From IMG/VR virus record IMGVR_UViG_3300031578_000168, positions 1 to 36,378 of that record: 36,378 bases of DNA; one strand, 5' to 3'. Position 1 is the stretch's first letter, and every line of letters starts with the position of its first letter. Shown here piece after piece: positions 24,989-36,378 of the stretch. This DNA comes from a virus. Below the pieces are notes generated by a model. It saw nothing but the letters and a program-made list of their open reading frames with translations, searched no databases and had not been told where the DNA came from. Made by a program: the position numbers and the translations under genes.

Positions 24989-25326
24989 TTGTCAACTATC
25001 CCTTTTGGGTCAAAGTGGAAAACTGTTTGCGGTTCTTCTATATCTTTTTGATCGTGTTGATCTTTAAAATCGCCCATAACTGATCTCATGAATTGCTTTT
25101 TTGTATCATCAAAAGCGTTTAAGTATTCTGTTTTAAAATCAACAGGATATCTCATTTTAGGGATATCGGTTCTCAGACGCTCTTTTCTAACTTGATCTTC
25201 ATGTTCCATCTTCTGCATCATAGCTCGTCGATATTCCTCGTAAGCTATTGAACCGTATTTTTGATAATATCCTGACGATGCAGTTGTTGTTGATGTGCTG
25301 TTATACCAATCGAAATTGACAGCCAT
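24967..25326 (-). CDS. Small unknown protein downstream of rpoB-like gene, 119 aa
   Basis: The start overlaps the stop of the RNA polymerase beta-like gene by one base (TAATG). The N-terminus is Ser/Thr-rich (STSTTTASSGYY), followed by a charged helix and a C-terminal FHFDPKGIVDKWPE segment. There is no recognisable domain. Tight coupling with the polymerase gene makes a polymerase-associated role worth testing, but this is inference from position. Confidence 0.55.
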   Translation of the reverse strand: MAVNFDWYNSTSTTTASSGYYQKYGSIAYEEYRRAMMQKMEHEDQVRKERLRTDIPKMRYPVDFKTEYLNAFDDTKKQFMRSVMGDFKDQHDQKDIEEPQTVFHFDPKGIVDKWPEKEN

Positions 25327-28300
25327 TATTGATCAATGCCAATCACTGTCAAATATGAATTTAATAACTTGACAGATTCTGGAGTTGAATCGAGATCCTC
25401 GGGCTCTGTAGCTTTTTCATCAATGAATCCTCTGATATAAGCATTCTTTCTTTCAATACAATCTGATTTGGTTGTTAAAAATTCAAAAAGGTTTATCGGT
25501 GCATCGTGACCAATGATACATGCTGTTTCCATTTCACCACATCTTTGACCACCTTTGTTTTTACGACCCCCCAATGGCTGGAGTGTTCGTTTTGCATATG
25601 CACCAATACCACGAGCAGCTAACTTTTCTTCAGCTATATGAACCATCCGCAAGAAGTAAATATACCCGACCGCAACGGGATTTTTCAAATGTGTTTTTGC
25701 TAATGGATCATAAATTCTTTCCTTGAAACTCGTGTGCGTATAAGCTAACGCTTTCTTTATATCTTCAAGCTTACACGACTCAAATGGTGGCTGAATCAAT
25801 GTAAGCTCGTTTATGAAATCTTCAGTTATTGTATCCGGCAGCTGTGTAGCAAATTGTGTAACATACCACTTGTCTGCCGTTTTATCAATAATGTCAATGT
25901 ATGCCAACAAATACTCTTTGATTGTATTTTGATCAACACTGTCTTTGAGTAATTGTATCATGTTTGCTTTGAGGTCATAGAGTGACATTGATAATTGCAA
26001 CTCAAACAATTGACCGATGTTCATTCTTGATATGATACCAAGAGGATTAATACAGATGTCCAAATGCCTTCCATCATCTAATTTGGGCATTTTTTCGTGG
26101 GGAACAATCCTTGAGATTACTCCTTTATTTCCATGTCGGTTCGCAATCTTGTCACCAACCTTCACTTTTCTGAAATGGACTCCATACATTTCTACCTTGA
26201 TGCCGTTGATCTTTTCTTTCTTCTCTTTGTATTTTCCAACAAATGAAAATAAATCAAGACCATTCTCCCGGATGAATTTGTTAGCTTGATCTTTGTCCAG
26301 TTTATCTTTCAGGACCTTTTTCAGGACTAACTCTTTTTCCTTTTGTTTCTCAATCATTTCTGCTACCCAATCTCGAAACTCAGGGATGTCCTCATTCCAT
26401 GCGTTTGCATAAATATTCACCTCGGGAATAATATATGTTTTTTCAGCTTCAAGTGGAATGTCTTCATTAAATACTGAATACATATCATCAATTGTTAGGC
26501 TCTTTAATATTGCATAGGGGCTTCCTGCCTGAATAACTTCATATGATTCTTTTGATCCAGGCGTTGGAATTTCGGGTAAAGGTTTATATCTTCCTTCTTC
26601 TAATGATAACAATACCTTATGAGGTGGAATTACAAATGATAAATCTTTAAAATGAACCGATGTTAAGGTGTCTTCATTGACAAGACGATCCGATATAACA
26701 ATTCCGTCCTCATAATTGTTTCCATAATATACCATAACGCCGGTGAGAAGATTTCGACCAAAGCGAATACCCCCATCTTTACAGAAGTTACTCTCTGCTA
26801 AAATGTCACCCGCTTTAAATTTATCACCAGGTTTAACATAGACATTCATAAAGTCCATGTGCTCAACATAGATCTTTCGATATGAAATGTTGAATATGTC
26901 AACTTCGCCATCTGCGTAAGAGACAATTAAATATTTTGCATCAATATGAATGACCTCACCATCCTTCTTTGCTTTTTTAACAAACTGCGTGTAATCTGTA
27001 TATAGATGCTCACACCCAGACCTGATCATTGGATGGTCAAACTCCTTTAATAATATTGACTGTCTCATCTGTGAAGATGACATTTGTAAACGTGTCTGGT
27101 CATCATGCTCCAAAAACGGAACCATCGAAACAGGGATTGATATTGGCTGTTTCTCTAAATATTCTGGTTCAAATCTTAAATTTCGATCTAATTTAACATT
27201 TGGAATTAGGTTTTGTAAAACACCACAATTGTCACGGTCAGGTGTATCAACCGGACATATGCGACCAAACATTGATGGTGTAATGTCCCTTAAATGTCGC
27301 GGAATGTTTTCTCTCTTGAATCCGCCTGGTCCTAAAAGACTTATTCTTTCGAGTTTTGTCAACTCCTCAATTGGGTTAATTGAGAAATCGAATTGAACAA
27401 TATCTGAAACATTACACTCTGACAATATCTGTGTTGAACTGATATTGAATTTCGGATGCCGTGCTGTTCTGTTTGAAAAACATAAATCAAACACGATTTT
27501 TGATAATTTTGCAAAGATCATATACTCAAAACATCGAACACGTTTATTCGTGAACTCTGTATCATCAATATCACCAGCTTGCATTGCCCACAACAACTCT
27601 TCGATTAGAGAACCGGTGTTTAAAAATTGACATGTTATTGGGTCGACCTTTGGAATCAAATCCAATGCATAAAGAACATCCTCGCCCTTTGATTTCGCAT
27701 TGTATCTTGAATAAATACGACCAACTTCTAAAATGAAGTCGTCTTGTGTGTATCCTTTTGATTCCTGATAAAATAATTTCAAATCCTCAAGCAACAATTC
27801 CATTAAATTGGTTTTGTCTCGAATTTGAAATGTATCAAGCATGAATCGACTACCCATTTCATCTACACCATAATATGCCAACATAAGCAATGACAATGGA
27901 ACTTTCTTTCCTAAGAAACTCACATAGATATTTGGTTCCTCTTTATCTTTTATAATCATCAATGTTGCCACGTTTGTTCGCAGCTTAATGGACTCGCCCC
28001 TTGTAACAACGGGGATATCAAACAACTGAAACAGAGGGATCTTCTTTCTACCGTTGATCATTATATAGTTTCCGTCAATGATCTTTGGAACAAAGATGCT
28101 CAAATCAATATTGTGTGTCCCTTTTTGCAAGCGGATAACAAGAGATTGTTTTAGCGTTTTCGATAACTCTCCTGATGAGAATCTCGAATCTCTTAAATCC
28201 AACTCTGTAATTGTAAAACCGATCTCTGTCACCGGTTGTAGTATCTGCGTCGCTAAAGGTAAAATATTCTCATAATCGAGTCTCCTTAATGTGAAGATAT

Positions 28301-28346
28301 TGTTATCTTCGTTTTGGATTTTGAAAATCGGATTAATTATGTTCAT
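25326..28346 (-). CDS. Phage-encoded multisubunit RNA polymerase, beta (RpoB-like) subunit, 1006 aa
   Basis: Conserved beta-subunit blocks are present in order: a rifampicin-region block INPIEELTKLERISLLGPGG (323-342) followed by ITPSMFGRICPVDTP, YEDGIV (545-550), the active-site lysine region GDKIANRHGNKG (731-742), NPLGIISRMNIGQ (767-779) and, near the C-terminus, GGQRCGEMETA. It is a single chain, shorter than bacterial beta (about 1340) and unlike the split subunits of phiKZ-type phages. The catalytic blocks look intact. It overlaps the beta' stop by four bases, which suggests equimolar synthesis. No alpha, omega or sigma gene is visible in the window. Confidence 0.95.
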   Translation of the reverse strand: MNIINPIFKIQNEDNNIFTLRRLDYENILPLATQILQPVTEIGFTITELDLRDSRFSSGELSKTLKQSLVIRLQKGTHNIDLSIFVPKIIDGNYIMINGRKKIPLFQLFDIPVVTRGESIKLRTNVATLMIIKDKEEPNIYVSFLGKKVPLSLLMLAYYGVDEMGSRFMLDTFQIRDKTNLMELLLEDLKLFYQESKGYTQDDFILEVGRIYSRYNAKSKGEDVLYALDLIPKVDPITCQFLNTGSLIEELLWAMQAGDIDDTEFTNKRVRCFEYMIFAKLSKIVFDLCFSNRTARHPKFNISSTQILSECNVSDIVQFDFSINPIEELTKLERISLLGPGGFKRENIPRHLRDITPSMFGRICPVDTPDRDNCGVLQNLIPNVKLDRNLRFEPEYLEKQPISIPVSMVPFLEHDDQTRLQMSSSQMRQSILLKEFDHPMIRSGCEHLYTDYTQFVKKAKKDGEVIHIDAKYLIVSYADGEVDIFNISYRKIYVEHMDFMNVYVKPGDKFKAGDILAESNFCKDGGIRFGRNLLTGVMVYYGNNYEDGIVISDRLVNEDTLTSVHFKDLSFVIPPHKVLLSLEEGRYKPLPEIPTPGSKESYEVIQAGSPYAILKSLTIDDMYSVFNEDIPLEAEKTYIIPEVNIYANAWNEDIPEFRDWVAEMIEKQKEKELVLKKVLKDKLDKDQANKFIRENGLDLFSFVGKYKEKKEKINGIKVEMYGVHFRKVKVGDKIANRHGNKGVISRIVPHEKMPKLDDGRHLDICINPLGIISRMNIGQLFELQLSMSLYDLKANMIQLLKDSVDQNTIKEYLLAYIDIIDKTADKWYVTQFATQLPDTITEDFINELTLIQPPFESCKLEDIKKALAYTHTSFKERIYDPLAKTHLKNPVAVGYIYFLRMVHIAEEKLAARGIGAYAKRTLQPLGGRKNKGGQRCGEMETACIIGHDAPINLFEFLTTKSDCIERKNAYIRGFIDEKATEPEDLDSTPESVKLLNSYLTVIGIDQ

Positions 28347-31012
28347 TCAATCATCTCTCCCTTTAGGATTTTATCCATTATACCTGAATATCGACCTTCA
28401 TACATAATTCCTTTCAATATACTGCGTTTCGGATTTGAAAACGCCATTGCCAATATCCAACTTTCCTGATTTGGAACTGACTGGATACTGAAATATGATG
28501 GTTTCACCTTGTCTCGATCTTCAAGCAATCTCCATTTTCTTGAGCTTTTCCACATCAATTGTGCTACAACACATTCAAAATGAACATGATGAATGTCCTT
28601 ATCATATACTGCAAACAAGTCATTGACAATATCCGTGTACGTTTTACCTTTGAATCTGTGAAGCAATTCTGCAACTGCTGCCAAATCTCCGATAATGTCT
28701 TTCTGCTTCATACCATGATCGTTTGCATCTTCACCTTTTATTACAGCTGAACCAGATGTGTGAAATGTTCTCAACACTAACTGGGTTCCTCTTTCACCAA
28801 GGGTTTGTGCTGCAATGATTCCGACAAAACGACTTTTTATATATTTATAAAGATCTCCATAACATGTCTTGCACAACTTAGGCGATTTGCAAAGAATTGG
28901 ACTTCTGATGTTTATGATTGTTCCAACCAACGCTTCACAATTATTATTTGTGATTTTCACCAACTCTCCGCCCACTGACATATTGCGACCAACAAGCATT
29001 CTTGCTTTCTTGCTTGATTTCACATTTACCTCAAGGAGATCCTCTGTACCGCAATCATCAAGATTTTCATCAATTTGTAAATTGGCACATGTGAATATAA
29101 GTTTCCTTGATAGGTAACCGGACGTTCCTGTATTCAATGCAACATCAAGAAGTCCTTTTCTACAGCCATTGGTCGATAAGAAGAACTCCTCTGGAGTCAA
29201 CCCTTGTACCAAACTGTTTTTAATTGGAGTTGGTAAAATTTCACCATCAAAGTTTGAAATAAACCCACGGGTCAGAATCATCTGTTTTGCTTGATCCCAA
29301 CTTCCTCTTGCTCCAGATTCAATCATATATGCATAGGGAAAGGTTCTTTTCAAATCTTCAATTACTTCTGCACTATTTGCTGCAACCAATTGATCTCGGA
29401 TTTCTGGTCTATCATATATTGATGCTCTAATCTTATCAGCCTCTGGAAAATCAAAATCGTCCAAGGACATTGTACAACCCAGAAGTGTTGCATATTTGAA
29501 ACCAACTCTTTTAACAGCATCTAGTGTTTGTGCTGTAACTTGCTCAAGATAATTATCTTTAATTTCATTCAAGATCATCAGAAGTTTCTTTTCGTCAACG
29601 ATTTCCTTTACGTCGGGATAGTCCTCCGGTAAACAATCATTGAACAATTTGAATCCTTCTTCTCTGTCTTCAAAATCCGGTGATGTGATAAAGTAAATTC
29701 CCAGAATGATATCTTGACTTGGTGTTGTTGTCAAGCTTTGATTTGATGGACTGCTTAAATTCTTTGTAATAAATATCTTTTCACGAATCTCCTGTTTTGC
29801 TTCTGCTGTGATTGGAATGTAAACAGCCATTTGATCCCCATCAAAATCTGCATTGAATGGAGGACAAACAAGAGGATGAATCTTAATGACTTTATCAAGA
29901 GTCAGTTTGATGTTAAATGCAAGCATTCCCAATCTGTGTAATGATGGTTGTCTGTTCAATATACAAACTTCATCCTGTGTTACTTCTTCACATATTTTAT
30001 ACAATACCGGATTGTTTGTTTCGATACATCTATCAACAAAGTCAATTGCTTTGTTTAACAATTTGAACTTTCCAATTGCAATAATCTTTTTAGCAATCGG
30101 CAATTTAAACAATTCTAAAACCATAATGTAAGGCAACACACATTGATCTATACTCAATGTTGGATCGGGGGTTATAACTGCACGCCCCGAGAAGTCGATA
30201 CGTTTACCTAAAATGTTTCCACGAATCAACCCTTCTTTCTTTGCCATTTTTTCTAATATTCTATGATATAACTCATTGACATCCTTCTGTAATTGCTTGA
30301 AGTATGTGTAATATAGATTCTTATCACGAATAATGTTAAGAACCGTATCCTTCATGATTTCTTTTTTTGTTAATATCTGAACATAGTACCGATTGATTTT
30401 GTCCATCAATTGTTTTCCACCTGCTGCTGCAGATGAAGGTCTTAAATCTGGTGGTAGAACAATAACATGATCAATTAATAAATTGTCAATGTTATTATGG
30501 ATAAGTATCCATTCTGGGATTCCATCATCTGCAAACATCTTGGATAAATCTTTAACCAATTTGTATATTGCATCAGTCTTTTCCCAATATTCGGTTCCCT
30601 CGTTTCGTTTATCTTGATCGGACCCAACTATGTGCTCAACCCCATCCATATACAAGTAACTTTTTTCATTTCTCATTAATTCGTCGATGGCATGTTTTAA
30701 AGTCTTCCCCCCAACCTCTACAACAAGATCATAGAAGATGGGGTTGACTACAGGGATCGGTAAACCTATTTTTGCAAAACGTGTTCTTCTAACATCGCTA
30801 TTGATAATATCAACACCGCATGTTGAACATTTTCCGCCCGATTTCGATAAGCCATAGTAGGTTCCGCACTGACATGTGTAATTTTTTATTGGTCCGAAAA
30901 TTTGCTCTGAGAACAAACCTTGCGGATGAAACTTTTTCTTTCCGAATACTTTTAGAGACGTCACTTCGTCTAGTTCTTCACAGAATTGTGCGTAATCTAA
31001 AACTTTTGGCAT
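28343..31012 (-). CDS. Phage-encoded multisubunit RNA polymerase, beta' (RpoC-like) subunit, 889 aa
   Basis: The catalytic Mg-binding motif NADFDGDQMAV is complete (387-397, aspartates 389, 391 and 393). An N-terminal zinc site has Cys47, Cys49, Cys62 and Cys65. Other hallmarks are VLPPDLRPS, LGKRIDFSGRAVI, LNRQPSLHRLG and a bridge helix/trigger loop-type LGERGTQLVLRTFHTSG. The chain is much shorter than bacterial beta' (about 1400), lacking much of the C-terminal part. It precedes beta in the operon, the reverse of the bacterial rpoB-rpoC order. An AAGGAG site precedes the ATG. Confidence 0.95.
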   Translation of the reverse strand: MPKVLDYAQFCEELDEVTSLKVFGKKKFHPQGLFSEQIFGPIKNYTCQCGTYYGLSKSGGKCSTCGVDIINSDVRRTRFAKIGLPIPVVNPIFYDLVVEVGGKTLKHAIDELMRNEKSYLYMDGVEHIVGSDQDKRNEGTEYWEKTDAIYKLVKDLSKMFADDGIPEWILIHNNIDNLLIDHVIVLPPDLRPSSAAAGGKQLMDKINRYYVQILTKKEIMKDTVLNIIRDKNLYYTYFKQLQKDVNELYHRILEKMAKKEGLIRGNILGKRIDFSGRAVITPDPTLSIDQCVLPYIMVLELFKLPIAKKIIAIGKFKLLNKAIDFVDRCIETNNPVLYKICEEVTQDEVCILNRQPSLHRLGMLAFNIKLTLDKVIKIHPLVCPPFNADFDGDQMAVYIPITAEAKQEIREKIFITKNLSSPSNQSLTTTPSQDIILGIYFITSPDFEDREEGFKLFNDCLPEDYPDVKEIVDEKKLLMILNEIKDNYLEQVTAQTLDAVKRVGFKYATLLGCTMSLDDFDFPEADKIRASIYDRPEIRDQLVAANSAEVIEDLKRTFPYAYMIESGARGSWDQAKQMILTRGFISNFDGEILPTPIKNSLVQGLTPEEFFLSTNGCRKGLLDVALNTGTSGYLSRKLIFTCANLQIDENLDDCGTEDLLEVNVKSSKKARMLVGRNMSVGGELVKITNNNCEALVGTIINIRSPILCKSPKLCKTCYGDLYKYIKSRFVGIIAAQTLGERGTQLVLRTFHTSGSAVIKGEDANDHGMKQKDIIGDLAAVAELLHRFKGKTYTDIVNDLFAVYDKDIHHVHFECVVAQLMWKSSRKWRLLEDRDKVKPSYFSIQSVPNQESWILAMAFSNPKRSILKGIMYEGRYSGIMDKILKGEMIE

Positions 31013-31025
31013 TATCAGCTTCTCC

Positions 31026-31244
31026 TTAAATTGAAAATTTCTCTTTTACGAGATCGGCTAACTCGGTGAAATGCTCTTTGACTCGTTTGGATATAAGTTC
31101 ATCTAAATGTGGTAAAATGGCCAAAACGATTCTACTAGCATCTTCTTCTTTTAATGTTACTTCTAACAAGTCAGCTTGCTCATTCAGTTCCGCTTTGATA
31201 AGTTTTTTTATATAATCTTCCATGATGTTTGGTGTTTCACTCAT
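31026..31244 (-). CDS. Small helical protein between E2-like and polymerase genes, 72 aa
   Basis: An AAGGAG site precedes the ATG, and the gene ends 13 bases before the RNA polymerase beta' start. The protein is almost entirely predicted helix, acidic, with heptad-like spacing of leucines (YIKKLIKAELNEQADLL). There is no signature of the omega subunit. It could be a small polymerase-binding or conjugation-system factor, but there is no direct evidence. Confidence 0.6.
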   Translation of the reverse strand: MSETPNIMEDYIKKLIKAELNEQADLLEVTLKEEDASRIVLAILPHLDELISKRVKEHFTELADLVKEKFSI

Positions 31245-31248
31245 GTAT

Positions 31249-31722
31249 TTAATCTCCTTGATTGAATTGCATAGATATTGATTTCAGTTTTTTATATTCC
31301 ACTTGATTCTTAGGTGGAGTATAGAAACAGTCATCAAGATAATACGTTTTAATATTTGTTAGAAGCATTTCATAATATTTTTCATCATACTTTACTCCCT
31401 TTTTATATTTAGGTAAGCAATAGAAATTTGTCTCAGGATCTCTATTTGGGTGATATCCAAATAGTGTAATGTTCCTTACAAAATCCTGTTCTGTTATAAC
31501 CATGAACCCATTAATAAAAAACTGTGGGTGGAGATATGTAATCTCATATACTTGTTTATTTTTAATCATACGGGTTGGTATGATTTGCCCCTCATAGAGA
31601 TAAATTTTCTCTATAAGAGGCAAATCGTTGTTGTGACCCCATATGACTATTCGGTCGTCAACATAATCCATCGGTTTACGCGGCGCCCGTTTCTTCCAAT
31701 AACTCGATGAAGGATTTCCCAT
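31249..31722 (-). CDS. E2-like ubiquitin-conjugating-enzyme-like protein, 157 aa
   Basis: The segment GYHPNRDPETNFYCLPKY has HPN at 91-93 and a cysteine at 102. This reproduces the core of E2 enzymes, where an HPN precedes the catalytic cysteine by seven to nine residues. Upstream are beta-strand-like segments (RIVIWGH, KIYLYEGQ, VYEITYLHP), and downstream a helix (YYEMLLTNIKTYYLDD) falls where E2s have one. The ATG has AAGGAG and overlaps the upstream E1-like gene by 47 bases, so the pair is co-translated. E2 proteins receive the modifier from E1 and pass it to a target. The call is from motif and neighbourhood; structure prediction would settle it. Confidence 0.6.
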   Translation of the reverse strand: MGNPSSSYWKKRAPRKPMDYVDDRIVIWGHNNDLPLIEKIYLYEGQIIPTRMIKNKQVYEITYLHPQFFINGFMVITEQDFVRNITLFGYHPNRDPETNFYCLPKYKKGVKYDEKYYEMLLTNIKTYYLDDCFYTPPKNQVEYKKLKSISMQFNQGD

Positions 31723-32593
31723 TTTCTCTCCTTACTGTAACTATGTAGTTTGATACTCCAGGTTGTAATTCAACTAAATCTGAGAGACGTTGCATCACAT
31801 CCATTGATGTGTTTAAACTTCCGGCTGGAATCATTGAGTATTTTGTTTCTGCCACCTCAGGCATTCTGTGAAATAACTTTTGAATGATATTTTGAGATGG
31901 TTTTTCGCCAACATAAACATCAACATGTTCTGTTCTGTTAAGATTCAATATTGGTTTGATATTGTCTTCTATGCATTGTAGACGCTGTGATACATCTGCT
32001 TGCTCATAAATAATGTCAATCTTATTATCCAAAGTTCTTTTAATAGCTCTACTCATAACAGAAGGCAGAATACTTAGATCAATTCGTTGTAACAAATTGT
32101 TCTTAATCATATCATTTACTTCCTCACTATCAATAATCTGAGCTGCATAAAATGCTGCTTTGTTAATCTCAGGCCTTGATAAGTTGGTTGAATATGATCC
32201 ATTGTACGAGCAAGCATTTCTGACATTTTTTCTACAATCTATTATTAGAACTTTTTCCGAGATGTAAAACCGAACATCAATTTCTCCATCTCTATCGCAC
32301 ACAACATCTCGGCAATCTATTATAAGATTACATTGAGGTAAAGACGTTTTCCCTTCAATATAACTTTTATTAATTGCAGTGACAGTAACATCATCGTTTA
32401 TAATATCTTCAAGTGCCTTGACTTTATACTCTCCAACTTGAGAAGAATTGTAGATAGATTTGAAAACATTCTTACTTTCTACAATGTCAGGGTCAATTAT
32501 GACTAATTCTTTTACACCGTCTAATTCGGAAATATGCTTACATAGAAAACCGCCTAATGTACCTATTCCGATTACTGCCACTTTACGAAACAC
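31676..32593 (-). CDS. E1/ThiF-like adenylating enzyme (second of two), 305 aa
   Basis: The N-terminal Rossmann fold has VIGIGTLGG (GxGxxG at 9-14), the ATP-ribose acid in VIIDPD (Asp34/Asp36), a KN pair at 41-42, a lysine in GEYKVKALE and IIDCRD (Asp93) at the strand end. The usual arginine after the Asn is not evident, so ATP use may differ. The C-terminal 100 residues include a segment (PAGSLNTSMDVMQ...IVTVRRENG) that could be a small beta-grasp or E2-binding domain. The start codon is GTG with an AAGGAG ten bases upstream. It is flanked by the ubiquitin-like gene and the E2-like gene. Confidence 0.8.
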   Translation of the reverse strand: MFRKVAVIGIGTLGGFLCKHISELDGVKELVIIDPDIVESKNVFKSIYNSSQVGEYKVKALEDIINDDVTVTAINKSYIEGKTSLPQCNLIIDCRDVVCDRDGEIDVRFYISEKVLIIDCRKNVRNACSYNGSYSTNLSRPEINKAAFYAAQIIDSEEVNDMIKNNLLQRIDLSILPSVMSRAIKRTLDNKIDIIYEQADVSQRLQCIEDNIKPILNLNRTEHVDVYVGEKPSQNIIQKLFHRMPEVAETKYSMIPAGSLNTSMDVMQRLSDLVELQPGVSNYIVTVRRENGKSFIELLEETGAA

Positions 32594-32621
32594 TGAGGTA
32601 CATCTCCTTCCTAGTGGATTT

Positions 32622-32641
32622 GGGGGACCCGAAGGCCCCCC
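32622..32641 (-). terminator. C(UUCG)G-capped hairpin between the ubiquitin-like and E1-like genes
   Basis: Minus strand GGGGGGCC, TTCG, GGTCCCCC forms an 8-bp stem with one G-T pair and a UUCG loop closed by C-G, an exceptionally stable RNA loop known from T4 intercistronic regions. It begins 22 bases after the stop of the ubiquitin-like gene. No T-run follows on this strand, so it may stabilise the upstream message or attenuate rather than terminate fully. Confidence 0.75.
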
Positions 32642-32663
32642 ATTTTATTCCATCAAGGATGGA

Positions 32664-33140
32664 TTAGCACCCTTTCTTGCCGGCAGGTTTCAGATACTCG
32701 AGGGTATCTCCCGGTTGCAGGGTGTACTCTGCACCGACTTCCTTACCGTTTACCAGACCTGTGGACAGGCGATCCACATTCAGAACCTCACGGAGAAAAT
32801 CCCCAACTTCCTTGACGCTACGGCCGGCAACGGGAAAGTTACCGGAAGAGGCACCACAGGACACCTGAATGGTGGTGGAGGTTTTGGAACCGAAAGGAGC
32901 TCCAGGTTTGGTCAGAACGCTTTGTGCCTGAAAGGCCACGCCGCCTATTGCTGCAGGTTTTGCTGCGGCCGCTTTGGCCACGGTTGCTCCGGATGCACCG
33001 AATTTGTTCAGAATGGCTGCGATCACGACATCCTTGGGTTTCTTGGTCATGCCAGGAATGGCGAGTTCATCAACACACATTCTTTTGAGTTCGACTGCAG
33101 TTTTGGCTTCCAGAGTTTCGCGAGTAAAAGTTGCTCCCAT
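32664..33140 (-). CDS. Ubiquitin-like modifier with an N-terminal SAP-like domain, 158 aa
   Basis: Residues about 14-47 (ELKRMCVDELAIPGMTKKPK...) fit a small SAP/HeH-type helix-extended-helix domain, often a nucleic-acid binder. An Ala-rich linker follows. Residues about 88-153 read as a beta-grasp fold: TTIQVSCG, a helix VKEVGDFLREVL, then LVNGKEV and YTLQPGDTLEYLKP, similar to ThiS/MoaD-type proteins. The C-terminus PAGKKGC resembles the xGxKG end of PRTRC protein C but has an extra cysteine. G+C is about 54% in two stretches I counted, well above neighbours. Strong AAGGAG site. Two E1-like genes and an E2-like gene surround it. Confidence 0.7.
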   Translation of the reverse strand: MGATFTRETLEAKTAVELKRMCVDELAIPGMTKKPKDVVIAAILNKFGASGATVAKAAAAKPAAIGGVAFQAQSVLTKPGAPFGSKTSTTIQVSCGASSGNFPVAGRSVKEVGDFLREVLNVDRLSTGLVNGKEVGAEYTLQPGDTLEYLKPAGKKGC

Positions 33141-33186
33141 GTTTAAATCTCCTTGTTACGTTTAGTTTGTTGTTGTTGTTCACGAT

Positions 33187-33202
33187 GTGACCAAATGGTC
33201 AC
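33187..33202 (-). promoter_or_regulatory. Short palindrome after the ThiF stop codon
   Basis: GTGACC and GGTCAC arms of six bases flank AAAT. On the minus strand it starts at the last base of the ThiF stop codon. It is followed by an unstructured AACAACAACAACAAAC leader and then the ubiquitin-like gene. It may be a transcript-processing hairpin or an operator; the T-run of a terminator is missing. Confidence 0.4.
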
Positions 33203-33894
33203 TACTGTTTTACGATTCGAATCTTCGAGTTGGAGTTCATACTCAAAATATCAAAGTAGACCTCCGACCGATCATGCTGACCCTTCACAACAGAGTTGTA
33301 GAATAACCAACACATCAGCGTTGCAACGCCCAGATTTGTGAAATACAACTGGGGTTCCGATTGTGATAATTCCTCACATGACATTTCATCTGGTAACTTA
33401 TCGTCAGGGTTTGCAATCTCTGGATGATAGGCACATAGGTCAGGTGTTAAATCTACCCCCCCTCTTCTGACATAAAGTTGTGCATTACCATCTGTTAATT
33501 CATTCCCACCAGAAATAATTGTAACATCATTCAGATTCTTACAATAATTGTTAATTATCATTCTGGATTTGTGATTGTCAACACATATGAATACAATTGT
33601 ATTCTCTTTAATTACTTGGGCAATATTAGTTTCATTGATGTAAGCATCGAATACGTCAAATTCGATATTGCTGAACTTCATAGCAAGCTCATCGGCTTTT
33701 GTTTCAGCTTTGTTGCCCATACCACTAAATTCCTGTCGTTCGAAATTTTTCATTTCGTATTGGTCTCCATCGACCAAAAGTATGTTCGCTTCATAATCTT
33801 GAGAAAAGTTTAGAAACCGACAAAGACGTTCTGCAAGGATTGTGCCGACACCGCCCAAGCCGATAATAGTAATATCAATGGACTGTTGTGTCAT
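33202..33894 (-). CDS. ThiF/E1-like adenylating enzyme (first of two), 230 aa
   Basis: The Rossmann motif IIGLGGVGT (GLGGVG at 12-17), ribose-binding VDGDQYE (Asp42/Asp44), KNFERQEF (Arg53) for ATP phosphate and ICVDNHKSR (Asp106) fit ThiF/E1 proteins. The YHPEIANPDD...MSCEELSQSEPQ segment places a candidate thioester cysteine at 173. Its layout resembles PRTRC-system ThiF proteins. I chose ATG at 33894, with GGAGG five bases upstream, over the GTG at 33900. The gene overlaps the JAB gene by 20 bases. It probably adenylates the C-terminus of the neighbouring ubiquitin-like protein. Confidence 0.88.
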   Translation of the reverse strand: MTQQSIDITIIGLGGVGTILAERLCRFLNFSQDYEANILLVDGDQYEMKNFERQEFSGMGNKAETKADELAMKFSNIEFDVFDAYINETNIAQVIKENTIVFICVDNHKSRMIINNYCKNLNDVTIISGGNELTDGNAQLYVRRGGVDLTPDLCAYHPEIANPDDKLPDEMSCEELSQSEPQLYFTNLGVATLMCWLFYNSVVKGQHDRSEVYFDILSMNSNSKIRIVKQ

Positions 33895-35737
33895 TCCCAC
33901 CTCCGAATACCTTTCTCATTTTCTCAATAAGAGATAATGGTTTTGAAGTCCCTGGTTGTTCAGGATCAGGAATCCTTTCCAGGTGCTTATCGGCTTCTGC
34001 TGCAGCATCTAATATAGCTTGATGCTCTTCATCTGATTGGTGAAGGAATGCCCCTGAGTCTGCTTCCATTTGCTTCTCACGATCAATCTCGGAACTTGAC
34101 ATTGGATGACCACAAGCGTAGCAGCCTCCGATTCTTTCAATGCTGTCAAATGTGTTTTCTTCATTACATTTGGGGCAAATCAGAAAATGGCCAGGTTCTT
34201 CGTCATCAATAACAGTCAACTCAACAGGTCCGTTACAATAAGGGCATTGTCCTGCGGTTTCCATTTCTGACTCACCAAAGACTCCTTGGCAATATGGGCA
34301 TTCCCATTCCATCTCTTTATCCGCTGAGACGGTATCCGGCAATAATGTGTAACAATACGGACAACATTCATCTGTTGATAATTTCAAGAACGTATTGTTA
34401 CATTCCAGACAGGTTTGATATCCCTGTTGATCCGGTTGTACTTCCATTGATTGTGCAGAGTTTAATGCCGCTTCCCGATCTATATCATCCATCGGCGGCC
34501 CCTGCTCATAACCATCTTTAAGTTCATCTTGATCTATCTGGACCAAATGATCGTCCGTTTTACATGTTGGACATACTGCTTCAGCATCTGTTGTTGTGAA
34601 AACGACCTTGCACTTTTCGCAGTGATACATTTCCTCTTCAAACTCAATGCCTTCCATTTCATTCATAATTTTAGTTTCTCGGTGCTTACATGACAGACAT
34701 GGATTTAATGGATCACATGCTGGTTTTTCACCTGGTTTTACAACAACCGCCGGAGTTCCTGGTTTCTGCCCAACGAATCCTGGTAATTGTTTTTGGTTGC
34801 CAGGTGCAATGTATCGGCCAGCTTGGTCCCAAAGACTGGCGTCATAATTTCCACCCCAGCCATTCCAGCGACCACGACCATTCTTGTACATCCCACGTTG
34901 ACCCTGCCAATAGTTTCCACCACGCCAATCGCCATAGTATCCACCGTAGGTATATGTATATGTCCCACGTTCAACCATGTCCATCCATTTGGAATTGAAT
35001 TGGCGTTTGCTTTCCGACACTTTAAATATGTATCGTTTGTCGAATTTTCTTGTTTGATATGCACTCTTGCTGCTGGCCTTTTCATCTAAGACCATTTTAC
35101 CATTTGCGTCAGCCTTATATATCTTTGTGGTATATTTGATTTCTTTTTCATCAATATCCTTGGTCTTTGATAACCCAAGCATATAATCATCGGGATTCAC
35201 CATAAACCGATGGCCATTGGCAACGATTGATGCTGATAAGCTAAACTCTTCAGACATTACATTGCCGTATGTGATATGAAGTCCATCAAACGTCTTTTCA
35301 TCGCTATCATCAACACCTGAGTGAAACGCTGAAAAGTTTGCATGGCTGTGAATTGTTCCGATCATTGTAAAACCTTCAATGGTAACTCCTCGGTTATAAT
35401 CACATGCCGCTGCTGTAACTTTTTGATGGGGAGGAACAACTCGGTACTTTCCGGTTGCCTCATTGTAGAATAACAGCACAATTGCCTCGCCACTATACTT
35501 TTGATATACTGCTTTAAAGAACTCAAGTATCTTGGCTCCGGTTTGTGCTGGCAATGGATTGATATACATGCGTGCCATTGTATTGGCACTTTGCAAGATT
35601 GAAATGTTTTTAACAGGGGCGATGCTTTCCATCACCCCCATTTTCTTTTTCAGGAAGATTCCTTCTTTTGCGACGATATAATAAATATCATCATCCGGAA
35701 GTTCCTGTGTCCCGTCATTGATAACAACTTTGAACAT
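33875..35737 (-). CDS. JAB/JAMM metalloprotease fused to tandem zinc ribbons, 620 aa
   Basis: The JAMM motif is complete: His130-Ser-His132, seven residues, Ser140, two residues, Asp143, with Glu84 as candidate catalytic base. JAMM proteases remove or process ubiquitin-like tags. After a Gly/Tyr/Trp-rich region (260-310), four CxxC...CxxC zinc ribbons follow at 373-392, 443-462, 480-501 and 521-542, with an extra CLSC at 347-350. The ribbons could bind substrate, modifier or nucleic acid, or serve as an E3-like adaptor. An AAAGGAG site precedes the ATG, which overlaps the stop of the upstream gene (TAATG). The ThiF gene follows. Confidence 0.9.
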   Translation of the reverse strand: MFKVVINDGTQELPDDDIYYIVAKEGIFLKKKMGVMESIAPVKNISILQSANTMARMYINPLPAQTGAKILEFFKAVYQKYSGEAIVLLFYNEATGKYRVVPPHQKVTAAACDYNRGVTIEGFTMIGTIHSHANFSAFHSGVDDSDEKTFDGLHITYGNVMSEEFSLSASIVANGHRFMVNPDDYMLGLSKTKDIDEKEIKYTTKIYKADANGKMVLDEKASSKSAYQTRKFDKRYIFKVSESKRQFNSKWMDMVERGTYTYTYGGYYGDWRGGNYWQGQRGMYKNGRGRWNGWGGNYDASLWDQAGRYIAPGNQKQLPGFVGQKPGTPAVVVKPGEKPACDPLNPCLSCKHRETKIMNEMEGIEFEEEMYHCEKCKVVFTTTDAEAVCPTCKTDDHLVQIDQDELKDGYEQGPPMDDIDREAALNSAQSMEVQPDQQGYQTCLECNNTFLKLSTDECCPYCYTLLPDTVSADKEMEWECPYCQGVFGESEMETAGQCPYCNGPVELTVIDDEEPGHFLICPKCNEENTFDSIERIGGCYACGHPMSSSEIDREKQMEADSGAFLHQSDEEHQAILDAAAEADKHLERIPDPEQPGTSKPLSLIEKMRKVFGGGNDTTVH

Positions 35738-36378
35738 TAAGCTCTCCTTTGGTTTAAGTATCTGGTTGATAAAGCATTCTCGAATACATCAAATGAATGT
35801 AGATTTAACATCCCCCTGAGTATCCCAACTTGTTCGATTTTCGCCGGTGAGACTCGTGGTGCAGGAATACAATCCAGCCTGCACTCCCTTGTCATATAAC
35901 GATCAAGAGAATAAGACTCGGGATAACCACCGAAATATTCAAGTGGCATTGCTCTTAATGCCCGTGTTGTTGATGGGCCGTATAATAGATATCCATAATT
36001 ATTCTTGTAATCTTTCAAGCCATTGATAATATCTCCTGCCTGAAATTTAATCTTTGATAAATCTAATGGGGCATGGTCAAGTTTCGGCCATTGTTTGGAC
36101 TTCAATGTGATTTTCTTGAAGTTTTCCATAACATCATTGAACCACAATGTGCACCCATTTGAACAGAGAACTAATGGTTCTCCGCCGGTGTCGGTAATGA
36201 AGGCGACTATAATATTCACATCCTTCTTTGGAAAACAAGGAATGCCGGCAGTTGTTGCTACGATCTTTGTGCCTGCTGACAAACGGCCAATTTTATTTGT
36301 GACCTTTCTTACTTTACCCGTTTTAATGATTCCATGATATCCGTCAACATATAGGGTTTCCGACAGATTGCCTTCTTT
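35737..36378 (-). CDS. Unknown protein, C-terminal 213 aa (runs off the right edge)
   Basis: The frame is open from the right edge to a stop overlapping the JAB start. The first in-window start-like codon is a TTG at 36282, but the frame continues upstream with plausible protein (LYVDGYHGIIKTGK), so the true start is probably outside. The visible part is beta-rich at first (GTKIVATTAGIPCF, VNIIVAFITDTGG, VLCSNGCTLWF) with two cysteines, then helical. It is coupled to the conjugation cassette by its one-base overlap with the JAB gene. I do not recognise the family. Confidence 0.7.
   Translation of the reverse strand, partial: KEGNLSETLYVDGYHGIIKTGKVRKVTNKIGRLSAGTKIVATTAGIPCFPKKDVNIIVAFITDTGGEPLVLCSNGCTLWFNDVMENFKKITLKSKQWPKLDHAPLDLSKIKFQAGDIINGLKDYKNNYGYLLYGPSTTRALRAMPLEYFGGYPESYSLDRYMTRECRLDCIPAPRVSPAKIEQVGILRGMLNLHSFDVFENALSTRYLNQRRA

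Follow-up and report, generated by a model that had tools for sequence, protein, structure and literature searches.

The virus record IMGVR_UViG_3300031578_000168 of IMG/VR, whose whole stretch of 36,378 bases was analysed here (the window), encodes next to its RNA polymerase genes what we read as a phage-encoded module for ubiquitin-like conjugation, one that is kin to the plasmid PRTRC clusters in its core (E2D-JAB-ThiF-Ubl, the last being the ubiquitin-like modifier) and has in addition a second E1-like protein and a UBC-like E2. We assign this reading a probability of roughly 0.8. The record also encodes a baseplate protein of the T4 type and a protein resembling terminases, and therefore belongs to a tailed phage. 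The gene content, catalytic residues, family relations, synteny and purifying selection described below are direct observations, and the best reading of them is the reversible conjugation of a nucleic-acid-binding modifier that would serve core phage biology. A preliminary description of this DNA had proposed five consecutive genes for such a pathway at 31249-35737 (JAB, ThiF1, the modifier, ThiF2 and E2b in the order of transcription), and all five open reading frames (ORFs) are present there on the minus strand.

The first E1-like protein, ThiF1, matches the ThiF family (PF00899, E = 2.2e-19) and, over nearly its full length (residues 3-223), the PRTRC_ThiF profile (E = 5.1e-11). It contains the GxGxxG motif, and D44, N52, R55, Q56, K64/K68, D108 and C175 are conserved in 59-60 of 60 sequences. 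The ATP-site motifs and the candidate thioester cysteine attributed to this protein are therefore confirmed, C175 (codon at about 33376-33378) being conserved in 60/60. ThiF2 is likewise a ThiF match (PF00899, E = 1.8e-11; 33 of 34 relatives match ThiF) and keeps the glycine motif of the ATP site, D34, K57 (68/68), D93 and mostly D96. The proposal of two E1-like proteins thus holds as far as family membership is concerned but not for the catalytic equipment, as conservation across the ThiF2 family indicates that the catalytic Arg/Gln are replaced and that no conserved cysteine aligns with C175 of ThiF1. Because the adenylation Arg/Gln and an obvious equivalent of the thioester cysteine are absent, we describe ThiF2 as E1-like rather than as a second complete E1; it looks like a degenerate pseudo-E1. 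Active and inactive adenylation halves are known from BilD and from NAE1-UBA3 (PMC11354881), and by analogy with these our guess is that ThiF1 and ThiF2 pair.

The C-terminal residues ETGAA of ThiF2 (window 31676-31700) are conserved in most relatives, with A305 present in 63 of 68. We rejected the explanation that they are conserved merely through the overlap with the E2b gene, since they persist where that overlap is a single nucleotide (nt), for example in contig L024, and the idea that this C-terminus forms a second beta-grasp found no profile support. The motif raises the question of whether it acts as a binding or processing signal. One contig (L172) carries two ThiF2 copies, and some relatives only have, between the genes for the modifier and ThiF2, a gene of about 150-210 residues with a conserved RGxSICSxxD motif (Table 1) whose product is a candidate accessory factor.

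The modifier is composed of a Rho_N/SAP-like domain (about residues 8-47), a linker, a ThiS/TGS-like beta-grasp domain (about residues 88-157) that ends in Gly157, and a tail consisting of Cys158. Rho_N is matched by 31 of 44 family members (best E = 3.8e-13) and SAP by 6 of 44, and most PDB profile matches of the family are N-terminal domains of Rho factors; the N-terminal domain therefore probably binds DNA or RNA. The C-terminal domain matches TGS in 32 and ThiS in 25 of the 44 members, with individually weak values (best 6e-4). The protein does end in GKKGC, as had been reported, and Gly157 (codon at about 32670-32672) is invariant in the aligned family, but the final cysteine, which appears to be a removable tail, is absent from most relatives: among 65 distinct relatives, 39 end exactly at the glycine, 17 have one extra Cys, and the rest carry other tails. 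Two complete Rho_N-Ubl units, each ending in AGRKG, are encoded in tandem at L065:6713-7672 in the manner of a polyubiquitin precursor, and a Cytobacillus plasmid encodes, beside a PRTRC-like cluster, two tandem small Ubl units that each end in AGTKG, the second followed by F (L088:1475-1816). The invariance of the glycine, the variability of the short tails and the tandem precursor units together imply maturation after the glycine, presumably performed by the JAB protein. This seems reasonable in light of CD-NTase conjugation by Cap2, for which a single C-terminal glycine is sufficient and in which Cap3 cleaves after that glycine (PMC10097602).

The JAB protein has a PRTRC_A-like N-terminal part (PRTRC_A, E = 7.7e-10; Prok-JAB, E = 3.6e-4), and its JAMM motif of E84, H130, H132, S140 and D143 is invariant in 50/50 aligned family proteins, in agreement with the complete active site claimed for it. 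Its C-terminal half (window 33875-35100) contains many CxxC pairs in zinc-ribbon-like repeats; in distant relatives the protein is far shorter.

E2b, for which HPN...Cys had been noted, carries HPN at residues 91-93 and Cys102 (codon at about 31417-31419), and across the relatives His91 and Cys102 are indeed invariant (64/64) and the HPN nearly so. E2b itself has no Pfam match, and one of 38 relatives matches UQ_con (E = 0.0059). The sole PDB match of the family profile at E<10 is the E2 structure 5nkz, aligned exactly on HPN...C, which at E = 1.1 is weak when taken alone. Comparison by HH-align with a eukaryotic UBC reference, consisting of five E2 sequences of which one, UBE2D2, was verified against PDB entries, gave a score of 29.0. 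None of 100 versions with shuffled columns scored above 19.0, and PRTRC_B, an accepted E2 family that served as positive control, scored 28.6. The AlphaFold model of E2b, which is of low confidence, has four predicted strands, the HPN..C segment and then a helix, and is compatible with a UBC fold.

The cassette does not end at 35737, where the preliminary description had placed its limit, but runs to the end of the window and beyond, because the protein encoded upstream of JAB bears a second E2-type domain. This protein is 856 residues long in the near-identical contig L005 (L005:1594-4164) and about that length in relatives. The N-terminus of the full-length L005 protein matches Prok-E2_D (PF14460) at E = 0.0055, below the cut-off, and HH-align matches the E2D family profile to PRTRC_B proteins of plasmids along 190 columns, cysteine on cysteine (E = 2.9e-11); the score of the domain against TIGR03737 is only 11.6 bits. 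Its motif is P..NI....C.G; of 45 aligned sequences, 44 keep Cys181 and the one that does not is a truncated copy. By profile and motif, then, the phage encodes two E2-type proteins, E2b and the E2D fusion. Direct homology between the two was undetected by profile comparison. Three contigs (L128, L142 and L150) have a second Ubl gene upstream of E2D, and two others (L084 and L146) have two tandem E2D-fusion genes.

These components bear on a sulfur-carrier function, in which the modifier would be a ThiF-activated thiocarboxylate donor for nucleoside or cofactor sulfuration, trimmed by JAB, with the E2-like proteins as scaffolds. The beta-grasp matches are to ThiS and TGS, and JAB-ThiS-ThiF clusters have been described in sulfur metabolism (PMC1779556), which is what such a function would lead one to expect; the invariant cysteine of ThiF1 fits an E1 thioester and a ThiF-type acyl-disulfide alike and so does not discriminate. 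The presence of two E2-type proteins with invariant cysteines nevertheless disfavours sulfur transfer, no rhodanese or sulfotransferase domain occurs among the scanned cassette proteins, and a Rho_N domain on such a carrier would be odd. We consider this function very unlikely.

To characterize the distribution of the cassette, searches were made with the ThiF1, E2b and modifier profiles and then, to avoid bias, with RNA polymerase beta' (rpoC) alone. The cassette is found in dozens of viral contigs, with the full set in contigs of up to 248 kb, and in more distant contigs, of up to 459 kb, the core E2D-JAB-ThiF1-Ubl is present and its modifier is shorter. The same five-gene order, which it had been proposed to look for in relatives, lies just upstream of rpoC in 58 of 65 neighbourhoods (54 of 60 after clustering at 95% identity). 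These 65 loci are the ones in which the sequence ahead of rpoC extends for 6.5 kb or more, and it was the gene neighbourhood that was examined in each. In the 7 neighbourhoods without the full five genes rpoC is mostly divergent, and some of the absences may reflect genes that the profiles missed. The linkage is near-constant down to about 50% rpoC identity, and the operon link to RNA polymerase is thus stronger than had been claimed, although it does not imply that the polymerase is a substrate. One of the 65 loci (L097, DAOVGR010000079.1) came via ThiF1 and not beta'; it is the only match among genome contigs, carries the full cassette and rpoC on sequence assigned by binning to a Thermoplasmatales (archaeal) metagenome-assembled genome, and is probably a mis-binned viral contig.

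Dozens of independent contigs share this order of genes, the most distant of them at only about 20-40% protein identity, and the ratio of nonsynonymous to synonymous substitution rates (dN/dS) is 0.05-0.25 for every gene, corresponding to purifying selection; chance is thereby excluded. Pairwise gene distances correlate with rpoC distances, with coefficients from 0.29 (E2b) to 0.71 (modifier), all five above 500 permutations. On the evidence of these comparisons the cassette belongs to the core gene set of a large uncultured phage group and has for the most part been inherited vertically. Among annotated phages, E2b and the modifier found no match. Our literature search, which left most subscription papers uncovered and is thus not proof of absence, found no published phage-encoded E1/E2/Ubl system, and two overviews of jumbo phages (PMC7824862, PMC13282480) leave such systems unmentioned.

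This pattern of inheritance is what chiefly bears on the suggestion, made in the preliminary description, that the cassette counters host defence. The phage might tag or divert host immune proteins (e.g., CBASS Cap2 or Bil), or its JAB protein might strip host conjugates, which is a difference of purpose and not of chemistry. It is true that E1/E2/JAB systems of bacteria work against phages (PMC10097602) and that JAB could act on host conjugates. Counter-defence genes would, however, be expected to be patchy, and the near-constant presence of the cassette beside rpoC, at rpoC identities down to about 50%, is that of a largely vertically inherited core module rather than a patchy accessory; matches to PADLOC defence profiles are, moreover, confined to the shared E1 domain. 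We therefore regard a counter-defence purpose as quite improbable.

The genes of the locus are transcribed in the order given by the table, from the end of the E2D fusion to RNA polymerase beta (Table 1). Neighbouring genes overlap by 1-47 nt or are separated by gaps of 4-70 nt, so the arrangement resembles a single operon. The longest overlap is the one previously noted between the second E1-like gene and the E2-like gene, and is indeed 47 nt (31676-31722). The gene for a small helical protein, conserved in 48 of the 65 rpoC neighbourhoods, precedes that for beta' by 13 nt, and beta overlaps beta' by 4 nt. A promoter and terminator scan for operon boundaries gave terminator-like sites at shuffle expectation and uninterpretable promoter-like sites, and was not used.

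Table 1. Genes and other features of the cassette and its surroundings, in window coordinates except for the last row.
Feature	Position	Strand	Remarks
Upstream protein (E2D fusion)	35737..36378	-	C-terminal 213 residues, cut by the window's end; N-terminal Prok-E2_D/PRTRC_B-type E2 in relatives
JAB/JAMM metalloprotease	33875..35737	-	620 residues
ThiF1, E1-like adenylating enzyme	33202..33900	-	232 residues, GTG start
Modifier (Ubl)	32664..33140	-	158 residues
ThiF2, second E1-like protein	31676..32593	-	305 residues, GTG start
E2b, UBC-like E2	31249..31722	-	157 residues
Small helical protein	31026..31244	-	72 residues, between E2b and rpoC
RNA polymerase beta'	28343..31012	-	889 residues; RNA_pol_Rpb1 domains, best E = 2.3e-34
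RNA polymerase beta	25326..28346	-	1006 residues; RNA_pol_Rpb2_6, E = 3.8e-52
ORF antisense over the modifier gene	32460..33146	+	228 residues; probably a chance shadow ORF
RGxSICSxxD gene in relatives	L024:6535-7116, L025:6528-7094, L026:6503-7069, L037:6536-7072, L056:7174-7764, L064, L067, L084		between Ubl and ThiF2

The position of the cassette also bears on a role in the virion or its assembly, again a matter of purpose and not of chemistry, in which the modifier would be attached to structural or head-packaged proteins, for instance for sorting, and later removed by JAB. The tail modules TAPI/TAPK of lambdoid phages pair a Ubl with a JAB domain (PMC1779556), and the baseplate and terminase genes lie in the same window; the cassette is, however, contiguous with transcription genes and not with tail genes, and nothing ties it to virions. 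Such a role seems unlikely to us.

Returning to conjugation in the service of core phage biology, we infer from these sequences how each step would proceed chemically, that ThiF1 and ThiF2 act as partners, which targets are modified and for what purpose. JAB would trim the modifier after the glycine of ...KG where a tail is present, which in the window is the cysteine and in some relatives a short tail or a tandem copy. ThiF1 would then adenylate the modifier glycine with ATP and take it up as a thioester on Cys175, probably aided by ThiF2 as a catalytically degenerate partner in the manner of the NAE1-UBA3 or BilD halves. Transfer would follow to an E2 cysteine, that of E2b (Cys102) and/or that of the E2D fusion, and from there the modifier would be joined to lysines of one or more targets, from which JAB might also remove it for recycling. 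Since the modifier carries a Rho_N/SAP-like domain, a modified target should gain a nucleic-acid-binding handle, and the near-constant position before beta' suggests targets in the transcription or genome-handling machinery of the phage. The polymerase as the conjugation target would be a further step: the modifier might be reversibly conjugated to the multisubunit phage RNA polymerase, or to a partner of it, by way of a heterodimeric E1 and two E2s, and thereby regulate how it docks onto DNA of the phage or onto nascent RNA. We offer this as a tentative proposal that is rather unlikely to hold in so specific a form; if true, it would mean that a virus of prokaryotes encodes a ubiquitin-like means of regulating transcription.

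Several observations weigh against the conjugation reading. E2b aligns to UBC over a short stretch of 42 columns at an HH probability of 37%, and the match of the modifier to the PRTRC_C profile is weak (E = 0.036), though the ends align in register. AlphaFold models, each built with seven close sequences, reached a mean predicted local distance difference test score (pLDDT) of 45.9 for E2b, for which Foldseek returned nothing significant, and of 60.6 for the modifier, for which Foldseek was uninformative; because both are of low confidence, the E2b and beta-grasp assignments rest on profiles, motifs and conservation. The role given to ThiF2 rests on guesswork, and the correlation of E2b with rpoC distance is modest. 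Of the steps that the five genes were thought to supply in full, the modifier, E1, E2 and JAMM protease are accounted for, and the second E2 upstream had been missed; no E3 is evident in the examined gene neighbourhoods.

Most of what is known of ubiquitin-like conjugation in bacteria concerns defence systems and the PRTRC clusters of plasmids, which are largely unstudied. The phages considered here form a large clade in which a conjugation cassette is part of the conserved core and is physically linked to RNA polymerase; its modifier has a built-in domain of predicted nucleic-acid binding, its E1 is apparently heterodimeric, and it has two E2s. The locus offers a compact genetic system for probing the purpose of PRTRC-like conjugation and bears on the origin of eukaryotic-style E1/E2 arrangements.

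Among known systems, the TAPI/TAPK modules of lambdoid phages share a phage Ubl and JAB with this cassette but lack E1 and E2 and belong to a tail module. CBASS Cap2/Cap3 and other E1-E2/JAB systems have in common with it the E1, E2 and JAB chemistry and the single C-terminal glycine, whereas in the phage E1 and E2 are separate proteins, the Ubl is dedicated, and there is no CD-NTase in the cassette; the E2-E1 fusion of type II CBASS was not found, the PADLOC E1-E2 models matching only through their E1 part. The Bil system (BilABCD) likewise combines a Ubl, an E1 with active and inactive adenylation parts, an E2 and a JAB protein, but ThiF1 and ThiF2 are separate and E2b has a classical HPN where BilB has a CEHH motif (PMC11354881); of the PADLOC profiles for BilA-D, only that of BilD gave a match, a weak one to the E1 domain of ThiF1 (E = 0.012). 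Two large isolated phages, Bacillus phage vB_BauM_KLEB27-3 and Vibrio phage D69, share the E2D-JAB-ThiF set, without ThiF2, E2b or a Rho_N-Ubl found alongside; in KLEB27-3 the genes also stand in that order.

The nearest kinds are operon type 6d of Iyer, Burroughs and Aravind 2006 and PRTRC (PMC1779556). The E2s of type 6d are without the histidine, in contrast to the classical HPN of E2b. The kinship to PRTRC-type cassettes of bacteria and plasmids, recognized in the preliminary description, is borne out by profile matches and gene order, with scores that remain far below the cut-offs: the phage order E2D-JAB-ThiF1 is that of plasmid B-A-ThiF (Cupriavidus, Xanthomonas and Sphingopyxis plasmids), and both have a small beta-grasp modifier ending in a single glycine after lysine (AGKKG, AGRKG or GVKG in the phages; LGTKG, AVGTKG or AAGAKG plus a tail in plasmid PRTRC_C). 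The phage JAB scores 38.6 bits against PRTRC_A (TIGR03735, curated cut-off 101.8), which makes it homologous and not an equivalog, and ThiF1 scores 42.4 bits against PRTRC_ThiF (TIGR03736, curated cut-off 144.75). None of the PRTRC E, F and ParB-family genes was noted among the neighbours read, no dedicated whole-genome search having been made. Particular to the phage side are the Rho_N/SAP-fused modifier, the E2D protein with its long C-terminal part, the additional ThiF2 and UBC-like E2b, and the RNA polymerase neighbour. On these sequence comparisons the cassette is related to the PRTRC core but is not a PRTRC member, since it is a core module of phages distinguished by the Rho_N fusion, the ThiF2/E2b pair, the HPN, the E2D fusion and the linkage to RNA polymerase.

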